Part shown: piece by piece, positions 18,441 through 29,278 of the stretch
How the letters are laid out: every line of letters begins with the position of its first letter
Position numbering within the stretch: position 1 is the first letter of the stretch
Program-made: the position numbers and the translations under genes
The notes under the pieces: generated by a model
Told to the model about the DNA's origin: nothing
The model's input: the letters and a program-made list of their open reading frames with translations, nothing else
Databases searched by the model: none
Assembly: GCF_009932555.1 (NCBI RefSeq)
Contig: NZ_BLJO01000010.1
Location: 247,972 to 311,971 of the forward strand
Reading direction: 5' to 3'
DNA: 64,000 nt
DNA from: Steroidobacter agaridevorans
GTDB taxonomy: Bacteria > Pseudomonadota > Gammaproteobacteria > Steroidobacterales > Steroidobacteraceae

Positions 18441-18587
18441 GACAAGGCGCCGCCCCAGACTCATTTCAGCCGGGCTGGGGTATCCGCAGACCCCAGTAAT
18501 TCATTGTGGAAGTCCGCGCGTTGCAGCAACCTGTGACGGCGGAGTGTATTCTTCTATCCTGGTGGTTTGGGTCTTTCGGGAAGCTCA

Positions 18588-20435
18588 GTGCTCACGGCCG
18601 ATAAAGTTCTAGTCACGGTAGGAACGCCCTGCTCGATCTCAGCAGTGGGGAGCACGGAAACCTATCGCGCGCGCGTGACCAACGCGCCGGAATTCATCGC
18701 GCTCGCGGCGTTCGATGCCGGCCTGATCGACATCGACCCGCAAGACGACGGCTCGCTGAAACTGCGCTGGGTCAATGGCGAGAGCACCAGCGCCGAGGAA
18801 ATCGAGCGGCTGCATGGCAAGCAGCTGCGCGCGTCACTGGGCATCCGTTACATCGACGAACTCACCGCGCTCGGCAACGCCGTCGTCACGGATGTGGCCG
18901 CCTCCTTGCCTCATGACTTCGACCGTGGCGGCTTGCGCAAGCTAGCCGGCCTCACCTATCGCGATGTCCGCGAGTCGGCGCTCAAGGACATGTATGGCTT
19001 GTTCGACGACGATCCGCGCCTCGGCCCGTCGTTGCAGTCCCAGTTGTTTGCCTACACCGGCTTGGGTGCGCTGGCGGCGCTGCCCGTGTCGCTGGCGGAG
19101 CTGATCCCGAATCCGTATGAATTTCGTGTTGCCGGCGCGACTGCCTTTCCCGGCCTGGACGCGCACGGCCAGTTGCGCGCGGCCGGTACAGTCACGCCGG
19201 AGAACGACAAGCTGCGAGACAAGTTCGCAATGCGTCTGGCGAACTCGCTGTCGTCGCACGGCCCGGCGCTGCTGTCGACGATGCTTGCGCCGTCGTATTC
19301 GCTCAGCAAGTCGCTGAAACATCCTGAACTGCTCGATTCATTGCGCTCGGCCAGCGGCTTCATGCGCGTGCCGCAGACTCCGCTGAACGCGGTCGGTGCG
19401 TGTGCATCCAGTTCCATCGTGTTCTCCGAGTTCGCGCCGCAGATGGTGCTCGACTATCCGGGTTATCAGCGTCCGCAGCTGGTGTTGTGGACCGCGGCCG
19501 ACGCGGCCACCCGTCCGAACTGGCAGATCCTCGACGCCTTCGGTCCCGGCGCGCTGATGACCCGAGGCAAGCTGGAAGCGCTCAACGCCGGCCGCAGCCC
19601 CGCTGAACAGCGCTCGATCGCGGACAGCCTCGCGCCGTTCGACATCGACGCGAACGGGACCGTGGTGGGCGAGGGCGGCTCGGGCCTGATGATCACGACG
19701 CTCGACTTCGCGTTGCGTAACTTCCTGGATATCACTTCCATCATCGTGGGCTGGGGCCAGAGCGGTGAGGCGGGCGGCAAGGCGCACTTCGCCGGCGTCG
19801 GCTTCGGGGGCGAGAACGCGCTGATGCACGCGTTGGAGCTCGCCTACCGCGGTCATGGCTACGGGGTGGCCGATTTCCAATATCTGGTCGCGCACGCCAC
19901 CGGCACGCGCACGAATTCGAAGACCGATCTGACGACTGCGGCGAACGCGCGTTCAGCGGCCGCGGAGAGACAAGGCATCAAAGGCGCATTGCCGACGGTG
20001 GCCGTGGGCACGCCGAAAGCGGTGGGCGATGGCCACACCATGGGCGAGACGGGATTGAAGGCAGTCTCGCAGGCGCTGCAGTTCCTGCTTGGCAAGCCTG
20101 CCGTGGGCGTGCCGACATTGCGGCATCTCGATCCGGATCTAGGCACGGTGGCCGAATCGTTCAAGCTGCAGTCAGCGCCGGTGATTGGTAACGGCGATGG
20201 CGGCGCGCTGTGCGCAACTCAAGGCTTCGGTGGTTACAACGGCGCCATGGCTTTGCGCGCGGCGCATGCCGAAGCGTTCGCTCGCTACTCGCCCGACAAG
20301 AAAGTGCTCGCGGCGTATCTCGAGCGCTGGCCCGAGCTACGCCGTGAACGTGAACAGCGCGAGCGCCACTGGCGCCTGCGCCGTCGCAGCGCCATCGAGC
20401 TGGCGCAAATGCATTGCTGGAAAGGGCTGGATTAG
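18588..20435 (+). CDS. Divergent beta-ketoacyl-ACP synthase, long form
   Basis: About 615 residues, much longer than FabB/FabF (about 410), closer in size to the Pseudomonas FabY type. The condensing triad is intact: Cys in GACASSSIVF, the first His in AHATGTRTN and the second in GDGHTMGETG, which replaces the usual KSxxGHT form. A C-terminal GFGGYNGAMAL loop matches the ketoacyl-synthase glycine loop. It should join an acyl or acetyl unit with malonyl-ACP. The first 120 and last 70 residues are extra; the tail is very Arg-rich (RREREQRERHWRLRRR). GTG 18588, with GGGAAG upstream, is preferred to TTG 18567. Two hairpin repeats follow directly. Confidence 0.8.
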   Translation: MLTADKVLVTVGTPCSISAVGSTETYRARVTNAPEFIALAAFDAGLIDIDPQDDGSLKLRWVNGESTSAEEIERLHGKQLRASLGIRYIDELTALGNAVVTDVAASLPHDFDRGGLRKLAGLTYRDVRESALKDMYGLFDDDPRLGPSLQSQLFAYTGLGALAALPVSLAELIPNPYEFRVAGATAFPGLDAHGQLRAAGTVTPENDKLRDKFAMRLANSLSSHGPALLSTMLAPSYSLSKSLKHPELLDSLRSASGFMRVPQTPLNAVGACASSSIVFSEFAPQMVLDYPGYQRPQLVLWTAADAATRPNWQILDAFGPGALMTRGKLEALNAGRSPAEQRSIADSLAPFDIDANGTVVGEGGSGLMITTLDFALRNFLDITSIIVGWGQSGEAGGKAHFAGVGFGGENALMHALELAYRGHGYGVADFQYLVAHATGTRTNSKTDLTTAANARSAAAERQGIKGALPTVAVGTPKAVGDGHTMGETGLKAVSQALQFLLGKPAVGVPTLRHLDPDLGTVAESFKLQSAPVIGNGDGGALCATQGFGGYNGAMALRAAHAEAFARYSPDKKVLAAYLERWPELRREREQRERHWRLRRRSAIELAQMHCWKGLD

Positions 20436-20496
20436 CCCGGAAAAAGTCACGCCTTTTTCCGGGCGTATCAAAAGGGCCTCGGCCGCTTTTGATCAG
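20436..20496 (+). repeat. Double-hairpin repeat, copy 1
   Basis: First of two tandem copies, starting immediately after the ketoacyl-synthase stop. Hairpin 1 pairs CCCGGAAAAAG with CTTTTTCCGGG around a six-base loop; hairpin 2 pairs ATCAAAAG with CTTTTGAT around a GGCC-rich centre. It probably also ends transcription between the convergent genes. Confidence 0.85.
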
Positions 20497-20507
20497 GAAA
20501 ACCAGTT

Positions 20508-20567
20508 CCGGAAAAAGTCGCGCCTTTTTCCGGGCGTGTCAAAAGGGCCTTGGCCGCTTTTGACCAG
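20508..20567 (+). repeat. Double-hairpin repeat, copy 2
   Basis: Tandem copy, 71 bases after copy 1 start to start. Hairpin 2 reads GTCAAAAG...CTTTTGAC, so the outermost base pair changes from A-T to G-C on both arms relative to copy 1, which indicates the stem is conserved. It ends just before the stop of the small leftward gene. Confidence 0.85.
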
Positions 20568-20575
20568 AAAATATG

Positions 20576-20953
20576 TCAGCTGGTCTTCTTGCCGGTGAAG
20601 GTGCCTTCGCCCAGCTCGCCGAGCTTCACGGTGCCCTTCATGCTCGCGCCATCGACGGTGCCGGTGTAGCTCACCGCCAGGTCCGTGCCCTGCGCGTTCA
20701 CTTGAAAGCTGATGACGATGTCGTTGCCCTTCACGGTGCCGGTGACCGGCGACTCGCCCAGCATGCCCTTGTAGGTGCCGCTGATCTTGGCGCCGTCCTG
20801 CTTCAGGCTGAAATGCGGATTGCCGGCGCCGGCCTGGGTCTCGACGGTCAGGTCCCACTCGCCGGCCACGTTGGCGTCGGCGGCGAAAGCGGACGTGGTG
20901 AGCATCACGGCGGCGGCGGAGGCGGCCAGAAGCATTCTGCGCAGGCTGTTCAT
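20576..20953 (-). CDS. Small secreted beta-rich protein
   Basis: A 125-residue exported protein. The signal peptide (MLLAASAAAVMLTTSAFA) is cut after AFA and leaves a mature part of about 100 residues. This part has alternating beta-strand patterns, GEWDLTVET, PHFSLKQDG, KISGTYKG and GTVKGNDIVISF, typical of small periplasmic beta-sandwich or lipocalin-like proteins. It has no Cys in the mature part. A longer frame reaches 21037, but the start at 20953 places the signal peptide correctly. Function unknown. It is convergent with the ketoacyl synthase across two hairpin repeats and has a third copy about 120 bases upstream. Confidence 0.75.
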   Translation of the reverse strand: MNSLRRMLLAASAAAVMLTTSAFAADANVAGEWDLTVETQAGAGNPHFSLKQDGAKISGTYKGMLGESPVTGTVKGNDIVISFQVNAQGTDLAVSYTGTVDGASMKGTVKLGELGEGTFTGKKTS

Positions 20954-21071
20954 GACGATTCCCTGGAAGTGATTGTTGGGGTCCGTGTGAATTGTGGGTG
21001 GTCGCCCCGAGCACCGGCAACTGCGTTGACGTTTCATGACGCTGGTCCGTTTCGGCCTGCGTAATGGAGAG

Positions 21072-21132
21072 CCCGGAAAAAGTCGCGCCTTTTTCCGGGC
21101 GTATCAAAAGGGCCTCGGCCGCTTTTGATCAG
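21072..21132 (+). repeat. Double-hairpin repeat, copy 3
   Basis: Same 60-bp unit as copies 1 and 2, differing from copy 1 in one loop base (TCGCGC for TCACGC). It lies between divergent genes, where a terminator is not needed, so the unit behaves as a dispersed repeat rather than only a terminator. Confidence 0.85.
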
Positions 21133-21244
21133 AAGACAGGACGCGTTTTGCCCTGCGGTCCCGCCGTGTATGCAACAATGGCCGCCCAGGAATGGACTGA
21201 CGGACTAAGGACAGCAGCGCTCAGAGTGTTTAAATAGCGAGCTG

Positions 21245-22459
21245 ATGTTCCGCGACTTCCGCAAAATCTCGCCACGCATTTTCTGGCTGGTCACGCTCGC
21301 CGCGACGGCCGTGCTGTTGACCGTGGTGGCGGTTCCGCAGTGGCTGTCGAAGAACGCGCGGCTGCAGGTCCTGCGCTCGCACGTCGCTGAAATTGCGCAG
21401 ATTGCGGCCAGCGTCGTGGACGGCGATCTGCATCGGCAATTGCTCGATCCCGCCAACTACACGCCCGAACTGTACGAGCGCGTGGTCGCGCCGCTGGTGC
21501 GCTTCCATTCGGCGGATCCAGAGATCTTTTATGTCTACACGATGGTGGAGCGCGGCGGGAAGAGCCTGTTCGTCGTCGACACCGCCGCGTCCAGCAAGCT
21601 GAAGACCACGCGCAAGCTGCGACCTTCGGCATACATGGAGCCGTTCGAAAGCATCGATGTCGAGCCGGATCCGGACTATCTGCAGCGGATCGCGAACGGC
21701 GAAACCTACGTCTACCCCAGCTTTCAGCGCGACGTTTACGGCACATTCCTGTCCGGTCACACGCCCATCTACGACAGCCAGGGCCGTTACAGCGGCTTCG
21801 TCGGCGTCGACTTCGACATCAAATATTATCTGGCGCTGGAATCGAGTTTCCGCGCGATCTTTTACGGCTCGGTGGCCGGCGCGGTGCTGATCGCGCTGCT
21901 GATCGGCTATGTGGTCGCGCGTTATCACTATCACATCCAGGATCGCATCGATGAGCAGTATCGGATCTCGATCCGCGACGAGCTGACTCAGCTGCTGAAT
22001 CGACGGGGCGCGCTCAGATTCTCGCGCGAGGCGCTGGCGGCGCGGGTGGCCAGTTACGCCGTGATTCTGGTGGATATCGACGACCTGAAGGGCATCAACG
22101 ATCTGTACGGCCATGCGGCCGGCGACGAGTTCATCGTGAAGGTCGCGGATACAATTCGTAACAGTGTGCGCGAGAAGGACATCTGCGCCCGCATGGGCGG
22201 CGATGAATTCCTGATTTTCGCCACCGGCTGCGACCTGGATGCGGCGACGGAGATCGCGCGTCGCATCCTGGGCAAAGTGTTTTCACACGACAGCAACTCG
22301 AGCCGCTCGCACTTTGGCGTGTCGATCGGAATCTGTGTATCGCCCGGCGCCGATGCGAGTTTCGAGTTGTTATACCGGCAGGCGGACGAAGCGCTGTACA
22401 AGGCCAAGCAGGCGGGCCGCAACCGTTTCGTGATTTTCGACCCGATGGTCGCGGCTTAA
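21245..22459 (+). CDS. Diguanylate cyclase with extracytoplasmic sensor
   Basis: 404 residues: a membrane helix at about 14-32, a periplasmic sensor region to about 205, a second membrane helix (AVLIALLIGYVVARY) and a C-terminal GGDEF domain. The periplasmic part has the Cache-like pattern FIYVYTMVER...GFVGVDFDI. The catalytic loop is RMGGDEFLIF, with DIDDLKGINDLYGH for GTP and metal and an intact I-site (REKD) five residues before GGDEF. It should make c-di-GMP in response to a periplasmic ligand, with feedback inhibition. ATG 21245 follows a GCGAG site. Convergent with a sensory protein gene, separated by a strong hairpin. Confidence 0.92.
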   Translation: MFRDFRKISPRIFWLVTLAATAVLLTVVAVPQWLSKNARLQVLRSHVAEIAQIAASVVDGDLHRQLLDPANYTPELYERVVAPLVRFHSADPEIFYVYTMVERGGKSLFVVDTAASSKLKTTRKLRPSAYMEPFESIDVEPDPDYLQRIANGETYVYPSFQRDVYGTFLSGHTPIYDSQGRYSGFVGVDFDIKYYLALESSFRAIFYGSVAGAVLIALLIGYVVARYHYHIQDRIDEQYRISIRDELTQLLNRRGALRFSREALAARVASYAVILVDIDDLKGINDLYGHAAGDEFIVKVADTIRNSVREKDICARMGGDEFLIFATGCDLDAATEIARRILGKVFSHDSNSSRSHFGVSIGICVSPGADASFELLYRQADEALYKAKQAGRNRFVIFDPMVAA

Positions 22460-28460: not shown

Positions 28461-29249
28461 ATGCGTTTCTCTGAAATTCTCGATTCGATTAGTGCGACAG
28501 GCGAGCAATGCCAGGTCACGGTCAGCGACGATTGGATGCAGGGTCGCGCCACCTACGGCGGACTGGTCGCCGCGGTAGGAAACGAAGCGATGCGCAAGCT
28601 GGTCCCACGCGACCGGCCGCTGCGCTCGTTGCAAACAACGTTCGTCGGTCCGGCGGCAGCCGGGACGTGGCGCATTCGAGCCCGCGTATTGCGTGTCGGA
28701 CGAGCGGTGACGCTCGCTCAATGCGAAGTGCTCGATGGCGATCAAGTTGCCGCCGTGCAGGTTGGCGTCTACGGCATGGACCGCGAGTCGGCGGTGCTGG
28801 TCAAACCCGCTGCAGTCGATTCGCCGCGGAAGGTCGAGGAGATCAACGAGGTTCGTTACTCACCCGATCGCTTCCCTGCCTTCGTACAACACTTCGCGAT
28901 GCGCTGGGCGTTGGGCGCGAAACCTTTCAGCGGCACGCGCTCGCCTTCCAAAGTGTTCATTCGACATCGCGATCCCGCGCCCCTGACTGAATCGCACATC
29001 GTCGGCCTGGTGGATTGCATCCCGACGCCGGCGCTGTCCATGTACCAGGCGCCAGCTCCAGGGAGTTCCCTGGTGTGGATGCTGGAGTTCTTCGAGCACG
29101 ATCTGGAATTCAGCCCGGAGGCCTGGTGGCGCATCGACAGCGATATCGATGCCGCGACCGGCGGCTATGTGAATCAAACCGGCTTGCTGCACGATCCGAA
29201 CGGCCGGCCGGTCGCGCTGTCCCGGCAGTTGTTCGCTGTGTTTGGATAG
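28461..29249 (+). CDS. Acyl-CoA thioesterase, double hotdog fold
   Basis: A 262-residue protein of the TesB-like/4HBT_3 thioesterase group. The N-terminal hotdog has YGGLVAAVGNEAM (the GG-helix of these folds) and PLRSLQTTFVGPAAAG; the C-terminal one has LVDCIPTPALSMY and the hydrophobic strand LVWMLEFFEHD. It should cleave acyl-CoA to free acid and CoA. ATG 28461 gives the family N-terminus (MRFSEILDSI); the frame is open further upstream to 28365 but that part overlaps csaA in another frame. It follows csaA by 28 bases, so may belong to the same transcript. The end of a hairpin repeat begins at its stop codon. Confidence 0.85.
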   Translation: MRFSEILDSISATGEQCQVTVSDDWMQGRATYGGLVAAVGNEAMRKLVPRDRPLRSLQTTFVGPAAAGTWRIRARVLRVGRAVTLAQCEVLDGDQVAAVQVGVYGMDRESAVLVKPAAVDSPRKVEEINEVRYSPDRFPAFVQHFAMRWALGAKPFSGTRSPSKVFIRHRDPAPLTESHIVGLVDCIPTPALSMYQAPAPGSSLVWMLEFFEHDLEFSPEAWWRIDSDIDAATGGYVNQTGLLHDPNGRPVALSRQLFAVFG

Positions 29250-29278
29250 TCGAAAGGGCCTCGGCCGCTTTCGACCAG
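29249..29278 (+). repeat. Double-hairpin repeat, half copy 4
   Basis: Only the second hairpin of the 60-bp unit is present: GTCGAAAG pairs with CTTTCGAC around the same GGCCTCGGCC centre, followed by the shared CCAGAAAA tail. One inner A-T pair of the other copies is G-C here on both arms. It lies between two convergent genes and probably acts as a terminator. Confidence 0.8.

Follow-up and report, generated by a model that had tools for sequence, protein, structure and literature searches.

The window analyzed here, a 64,000-nucleotide stretch of the Steroidobacter agaridevorans genome, carries three complete copies and a half copy of a short element composed of two consecutive hairpins. The element behaves like a REP and fails some of the tested defining features of the GTAG/RAYT and CGTC families. 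It is probably a non-autonomous mobile DNA of the REP class, made of two hairpin modules and moved in trans by a Y1-type transposase; we infer the Y1 step from the anatomy of the element and from the REP literature. The preliminary description of this stretch had proposed a dispersed REP-like element, a proposal borne out by 23 copies in the genome of origin, by copies in relatives, and by orthologous sites that are empty in one genome and filled in another.

Copies in the window and anatomy of the element

Read directly from the sequence, the full copies are 60 bases long and start at 20436, 20508, and 21072 (Table 1); these positions, and that of the half copy, are as the preliminary description gave them. 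Copies 1 and 2 share a convergent gap, and copy 1 directly follows the TAG that terminates the ORF ending at 20435. The gap holding copy 3 is divergent, and the half copy occupies a convergent gap directly behind the TAG stop of the thioesterase-like gene, the G of which is its first paired base. The gene layout thus agrees with the earlier statement that copies occur in convergent gaps and also in a divergent one. Also as stated before, two pairs of hairpin 2 switch between A-T and G-C on both sides: copies 1 and 3 have A-T as the outer pair (20467/20493 and 21103/21129), copy 2 and the half copy have G-C there (20538/20564 and 29249/29275), and the inner pair, A-T in every full copy of the window, is G-C in the half copy.

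We built a covariance model from 18 copies of the S. agaridevorans genome (G000), so that 18 of its 20 full copies are in the model. The full window copies, all three used in building the model, scored E values of 2.1e-18, 2.5e-18, and 1.6e-16, and the half copy, which was left out of model building, scored 6.6e-8. Opposite strands of these palindromes aside, the next-best site in the window had an E value of 0.87. Copies 1 and 3 fold at -35.0 kcal/mol, whereas their shuffled sequences average -18.6 and -20.9 (z -5.6 and -4.5), and the half copy folds at -18.0 kcal/mol (z -3.9 versus shuffles). Since the GGAAAAAG form of hairpin 1 occurs only in the three window copies among the 20 full copies of the genome, these three constitute a local subfamily.

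Table 1. Coordinates of element copies and associated features. Plain numbers are positions in the window; positions beginning with C refer to contigs of the S. agaridevorans genome.
Feature	Position	Strand	Remarks
Foot TAG 5′ of copy 1	20433..20435	+	doubles as stop codon of ORF 18567-20435
Copy 1, hairpin 1	20435..20464	+	perfect 12-bp stem, loop TCACGC; from sequence, covariation, and folding
Copy 1, hairpin 2	20467..20493	+	one bulged G in stem, loop CTCG, outer pair A-T
Copy 2, hairpin 1	20508..20533	+	loop TCGCGC; head-to-tail, 72 bp downstream of copy 1
Copy 2, hairpin 2	20538..20564	+	loop CTTG, outer pair G-C
Small secreted-protein-like gene	20576..21037	-	between copies 2 and 3; no Pfam match
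Copy 3, hairpin 1	21071..21100	+	divergent gap
Copy 3, hairpin 2	21103..21129	+	outer pair A-T
Half copy (hairpin 2 alone)	29249..29275	+	adjoins acyl-CoA thioesterase-like gene
Copy at L069	C5:402527-402596		between the arms of a hairpin
Copy at L080	C10:25135-25204		in frame within HAD-hydrolase gene
Second family, L039	C11:156117-156231		four hairpins
Second family, L043	C3:820608-820723		four hairpins
Second family, L058	C6:24196-24312		four hairpins
Degraded Y1/RAYT-related gene, L266	C1:506471-507484		contains C1:507068
Degraded Y1/RAYT-related gene, L267	C9:401625-402737		contains C9:401736

The order of parts is fixed and head-to-tail: an (N)TAG-like foot, hairpin 1, a CGTG-like linker, hairpin 2, and a tail. 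The stem of hairpin 1, typically CCGGCAAAAG, is 10-12 bp long, and its loop has the six bases TCRCGC. In hairpin 2, which reads TCRAAAGGGC-CTYG-GCC-G-CTTTYGA, the bulged G is conserved and the loop has 4 bases (CTYG); the first pairs of this hairpin are G-C or A-T, then T-A, then C-G, and it is mostly preceded by CGTG or CGTA and followed by a tail beginning C/T-C-A. The tail, typically CCAGAGAA, has about 8 conserved positions, of which the fifth is weak in the S. agaridevorans copies. A weaker (N)YAG often lies 3′ of the tail, about 8 nt past hairpin 2, with little conservation beyond. Its G is present in 13 of the 20 S. agaridevorans copies and in 18 of 30 copies of relatives (orthologs included), and the motif may either belong to the element or be what is left of another tandem unit. 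At the left foot, the full copies of S. agaridevorans have AG in 17/20, TAG in 9/20 (versus 0.4% per position in the flanks), and exact GTAG in 6/20; the foot G pairs with a C past hairpin 1 in 17 of 18 copies. The comparison of feet and tandem copies used 59 rows, after repeats belonging to the same locus had been merged. The counts for relatives (30 full, 23 hairpin 2 only) are rough because the hairpin-1 pattern was narrow: some full copies, namely the rows of L110, L116, L121, and L189 and one of L191, were counted as hairpin 2 only.

The covariation analysis that the preliminary description had proposed revealed paired changes in excess of shuffles. Among the 18 copies of the model, two-sided changes occurred at 7 of 23 pairs, in 23 cells versus 5.4 in shuffles. 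At the variable outer and inner pairs of hairpin 2, both sides were changed in 9 cells and one side in 0, although the copies share descent and these changes are not independent events. Loops are nearly invariant while stems covary.

Units also occur in tandem arrays with a period of 68-72 bp, in which adjacent units have one TAG-like foot in common. In S. gossypii (L172:5382-5527), hairpin 2 alone forms a four-fold tandem with a 40-bp unit, flanked by genes that we take, by eye, to be cmk and rpsA.

Distribution and orthologous sites

In the 8.0-Mb S. agaridevorans genome, the covariance model found 20 full copies (79-97 bits) and 3 copies of hairpin 2 only (36-45 bits). An additional weak match (C11:115328, 35 bits) is ambiguous, and many lower-scoring matches are opposite strands of the palindromes or belong to a second repeat family. 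The preliminary description had held that a lack of further genomic copies would mean a local duplication only; the genome-wide search that it proposed instead yielded 23 copies. At E 0.001, matches were present in 9 of 60 genomes, S. agaridevorans (24 matches) and 8 of 59 relatives: P. soli JW-3 (G002), 25; G005, 24; P. agariperforans KA5-B (G011), 16; G019, 11; S. gossypii S1-65 (G010), 8; G003, 2; G012, 2; and G008, 1. The four richest relatives of the same genus thus have 25, 24, 16, and 8. The 11 matches in G019, which belongs to another genus of the family, are divergent double hairpins (35-58 bits), with the loop CCACGC at L104, L112, L118, and L123. Scanning 84,980 species genomes for the exact hairpin-2 pattern, a search that misses diverged copies and from which records near the S. 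agaridevorans genome were possibly excluded, gave 38 stretches, in Steroidobacter and Peristeroidobacter only. Neither the window nor 20 loci gave an Rfam match above the gathering score, and we found no study of repetitive extragenic elements in Steroidobacter in the open-licence literature.

The second dispersed family, which lies outside the finding in the window, consists of four consecutive hairpins over about 105-115 bp (examples in Table 1). With a model that omits L050 and L065, it was detected in 9 of 60 genomes: S. agaridevorans, 34 matches; P. soli, 48; G003, 54; S. gossypii, 46; P. agariperforans, 28; G008, 12; G012, 4; G004, 3; and G029 (another genus), 4; G005 had 0. The loop of its third hairpin is identical to the hairpin 1 loop of the two-hairpin element. 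On one strand, its first and fourth hairpins have GGA at the apex (ACANGGATGT-like), which we take to resemble a CsrA site. Two copies folded with z scores of -4.6 and -5.9, and the loci tested gave no Rfam match.

To follow the element site by site, we compared all 22 S. agaridevorans sites (23 copies, with copies 1 and 2 as one site) with the closest relative, P. agariperforans. L070 has no matched ortholog there, leaving 21 comparable sites. Ten are empty in P. agariperforans (21072, 29249, L069, L071, L072, L073, L075, L080, L083, and L088) and seven are full, some of them degenerate (L078, L079, L081, L082, L084, L086, and L087), with L082 a tandem of two. L090 and L091 hold the same half copy in both genomes, L074 holds hairpin 2 only, and the 20436 site has a possible remnant of about 10 bases. 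Several sites empty in P. agariperforans are empty elsewhere too: 21072, 29249, and L075 in S. gossypii and G008, L072 in P. soli, and L083 in S. gossypii. Other sites are filled in both S. agaridevorans and P. agariperforans and empty outside, namely L084 (P. soli, S. gossypii, and G008) and L079, L078, and L086 (P. soli). The comparison took in all 18 matched places of P. agariperforans and, of 64 matches in P. soli, S. gossypii, and G008, 22 places (11, 7, and 4), chosen mostly for a junction-spanning match and therefore leaning toward empty and hairpin-2-only alleles.

Judging from these alignments, insertion gain is the simplest reading of the filled/empty differences, and loss of copies seems to happen as well, as at 20436 in P. 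agariperforans. Where S. agaridevorans has the 20436/20508 pair, P. soli has one full copy, of the GGAARAAG type, and the gene upstream of it stops with TGA, not TAG. Since no two of the P. soli full copies compared are identical at different sites, nothing points to very recent copying in that genome. Junction alignments of filled and empty sites revealed neither a clear target duplication nor exact boundaries of the insertions.

The two hairpins can be separated, as four orthologous sites carry the pair in one species and hairpin 2 alone in another: L074 is full in S. agaridevorans and hairpin 2 only in P. agariperforans and S. gossypii; L075 and L071 are full in S. agaridevorans and hairpin 2 only in P. 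soli (degenerate at L071); and the half copy at 29249 corresponds to a full copy in P. soli, both directly behind TAG. Thus, hairpin 1 was gained or lost 5′ of hairpin 2.

Two further sites concern the surroundings of a copy. The copy at L080 lies within an open frame of 235 aa that matches PF00702 over residues 5 to 206; the corresponding P. agariperforans stretch is without it. At L069, the copy sits, by eye, between the arms of a hairpin behind a gene, and this hairpin, intact and perfect in P. agariperforans, is a probable terminator there.

Candidate enzymes and known systems

Using PF01797, we found no match at E 0.001 in S. agaridevorans, P. soli, S. gossypii, or P. agariperforans, which have 8-25 element matches each. 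NF047646, which is more sensitive here, revealed three divergent Y1 relatives in S. agaridevorans, all below its cut-off, and this overturned the view that the genome is without any Y1 protein. Two are degraded: C1:507068 has lost both HUH histidines (TTEAIYLAV), C9:401736 has lost one (PQAIHLIL), and both have another residue in place of the N in the NPV motif. The corresponding genes, L266 and L267, are kept in several members of the genus and, by their sequences, look like domesticated transposases; the C1:507068 relative is 93-97% identical among S. agaridevorans, P. agariperforans, and P. soli, and L266 is 78-97% identical in P. agariperforans, P. soli, S. gossypii, and G008.

The third relative, C13:108902 at a contig end, has an intact HUH and tyrosine region and scores 30 bits, where the family cut-off is 80. 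Homologs of it are present in P. agariperforans (two) and in G012, G013, and G001; at E 0.001 there was no homolog in P. soli, S. gossypii, or G008, and there were only weak ones in G005, G007, and G009. G005 holds one RAYT over the family cut-off. In P. soli and S. gossypii, we detected only the two degraded Y1 types, none with an intact HUH. A weak NF047646 match in P. soli (C1:1527465, E 0.38) was rejected, as the frame looks by eye like that of a periplasmic glucan biosynthesis protein.

The preliminary description had also suggested looking for a RAYT transposase, and here the search found no RAYT linked to the copies. Among 30 Y1 loci, 0 element matches flanked the Y1 genes; 20 further Y1 loci gave one half copy beside a degraded-HUH gene, in P. 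agariperforans only and absent at four orthologs. For the intact Y1 gene of S. agaridevorans, which lies at a contig end, this comparison covers the one visible flank. Two other candidates were rejected. The small gene between copies 2 and 3 is not a transposase unit, since it is present without flanking copies in P. agariperforans, and it has no Pfam match. An inverted pair of copies 2.8 kb apart (L186) encloses two long ORFs that read by eye as zinc-protease-like.

In Nunvar et al. (2010, PMC2817692) and Di Nocera et al. (2013, PMC3733652), GTAG REPs served by RAYTs are, like our element, short, palindromic, mostly extragenic, and dispersed, a description that the 23 S. agaridevorans copies fit. 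The likeness extends to single and tandem units, an AG/TAG foot 5′ of the hairpin, TAG stops supplied by the foot (PMC3733652), and occasional intragenic copies and complementary stem changes (PMC3733652 and PMC2817692). GTAG REP families commonly number 20-100 or fewer members (PMC3733652). However, most GTAG REP families keep an unpaired GTAG tag in >90% of members (PMC3733652), whereas the tag of our element is degenerate, with exact GTAG in the minority noted above and the foot G nearly always paired, and no RAYT flanked by element copies was found in the 30 and 20 Y1 loci. CGTC REPs have a CGTC/TGTC/CCTC tag, a stem opening with two A-T pairs, a 4-5 nt loop, and a CCA-like tail (PMC3733652). 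The element resembles them in having no associated transposase gene, in the CGTG/CGTA before hairpin 2, and in a CCA/TCA tail, and differs in a stem without two opening A-T pairs, a bulged G, the CGTG/CGTA form of the tag itself, and a second hairpin head-to-tail.

One other origin, which we regard as possible though unlikely, is that the element is a MITE of an IS200/IS605-like element, its two hairpins descending from the left and right ends of that element (PATE-like), each with a TAG-like cleavage site. MITEs derived from IS200/IS605, the palindrome-associated transposable elements, have two hairpin ends, flanking motifs that resemble cleavage sites, and no clear target duplication. In favor of this origin are the two different hairpins of fixed order, the short flanking motifs ((N)TAG on the left, (N)YAG past hairpin 2), the TAG shared by tandem units, and the lack of a clear target duplication. 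Unlike in these MITEs, hairpin 2 occurs and multiplies alone, at 3 S. agaridevorans sites and in the S. gossypii four-fold tandem, which is unexpected for a two-ended transposon. The loci examined also contained neither a parent element nor a Y1 gene between copies.

We find it rather doubtful that the element is gained and lost site by site through an enzyme outside RAYT/IS200, perhaps one reading the hairpin 1 loop common to the four-hairpin family. This reading draws on P. soli and S. gossypii, in which copies are present and a Y1 with intact HUH was not detected. However, since S. agaridevorans and P. agariperforans, the two genomes with demonstrated insertion differences, both hold an intact Y1, a Y1 could act in trans.

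In the mechanism that we favor, a Y1-type transposase (RAYT or IS200/IS605-like) acting in trans would recognize the single-stranded hairpins, cleave at the TAG-like foot, and insert a copy. The enzyme would have been lost from these genomes or would be encoded at a place unlinked to the copies. An element landing behind a gene may bring a TAG stop with it and would add two stable hairpins to the mRNA 3′ end.

Element copies at gene ends

We called gene gaps with a home-made ORF caller. Of the 23 S. agaridevorans copies, 21 lie between called genes; the L080 copy, counted as tandem, is inside a gene, and the L083 copy, also counted as tandem, overlaps a weak ORF. Seven copies begin exactly after a TAG stop. 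These seven are among 11 that start 11 nt or less past a sense stop. As TAG accounts for 35 of the 156 stops in these loci, the seven included, the TAG excess has a nominal p of 0.004. At sites behind TAG, the empty alleles have TAA or TGA stops in 6 of 10 cases (L075 in P. agariperforans, S. gossypii, and G008; L088 in P. agariperforans; 29249 in P. agariperforans and S. gossypii) and TAG in 4 of 10 (20436 in S. gossypii and G008; 29249 and L091 in G008). The six are consistent with TAG often arriving with the element, and Di Nocera et al. (2013, PMC3733652) report that the ends of GTAG REPs often provide TAG stops.

Could the copies instead be bidirectional intrinsic terminators, or stabilizers of mRNA 3′ ends, that are immobile and under selection at gene ends? 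We consider this very unlikely. The closeness of the 11 copies to sense stops and the high stability of the hairpins are in its favor, as is the placement of 8 of 23 copies in convergent gaps, compared to 6 of the 36 gaps in the window. However, the convergent share is not significantly different (Fisher p 0.13), and copies are not depleted from divergent gaps (4/23 versus 8/36, p 0.75), the remainder being in tandem gaps (11 versus 22); these p values are nominal, as related copies are treated as independent. We looked for a U-tract in the 20 full copies and found none: the 9 nt past hairpin 2 contain 0-3 T in 20 of 20, and the count past hairpin 1 on the other strand is 0-5. Within 20300-21300, there were 2 terminator-like matches versus 1.3 in shuffles. 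Also against this reading are the intragenic copy, the 10 sites that are empty in P. agariperforans among the 21 compared, the L069 copy that splits, by eye, the arms of a hairpin intact in P. agariperforans, and the conserved loop sequence, which terminators do not need. The preliminary description had called the element "possibly also a terminator"; a dedicated terminator is not supported, given the missing U-tract together with the divergent and intragenic copies. An incidental or regulatory effect of copies on mRNA 3′ ends is possible.

Local tandem or segmental duplication with gene conversion and without transposition has almost no chance of being the sole explanation, as the 23 copies lie on many contigs with unrelated flanks and clean empty sites, and it is retained solely to account for how copies 1-3, which alone carry their form of hairpin 1, arose from each other.

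REPs of the CGTC group, for which no transposase is evident, are an open question in Di Nocera et al. (2013, PMC3733652). Because the element described here forms a small family whose sites are filled in some sequenced sister species and empty in others, and because its hairpins are separable, both the mover and the part that it recognizes are directly testable. The in-frame copy in the HAD-hydrolase gene and the copies directly behind stops show how such elements alter gene ends.
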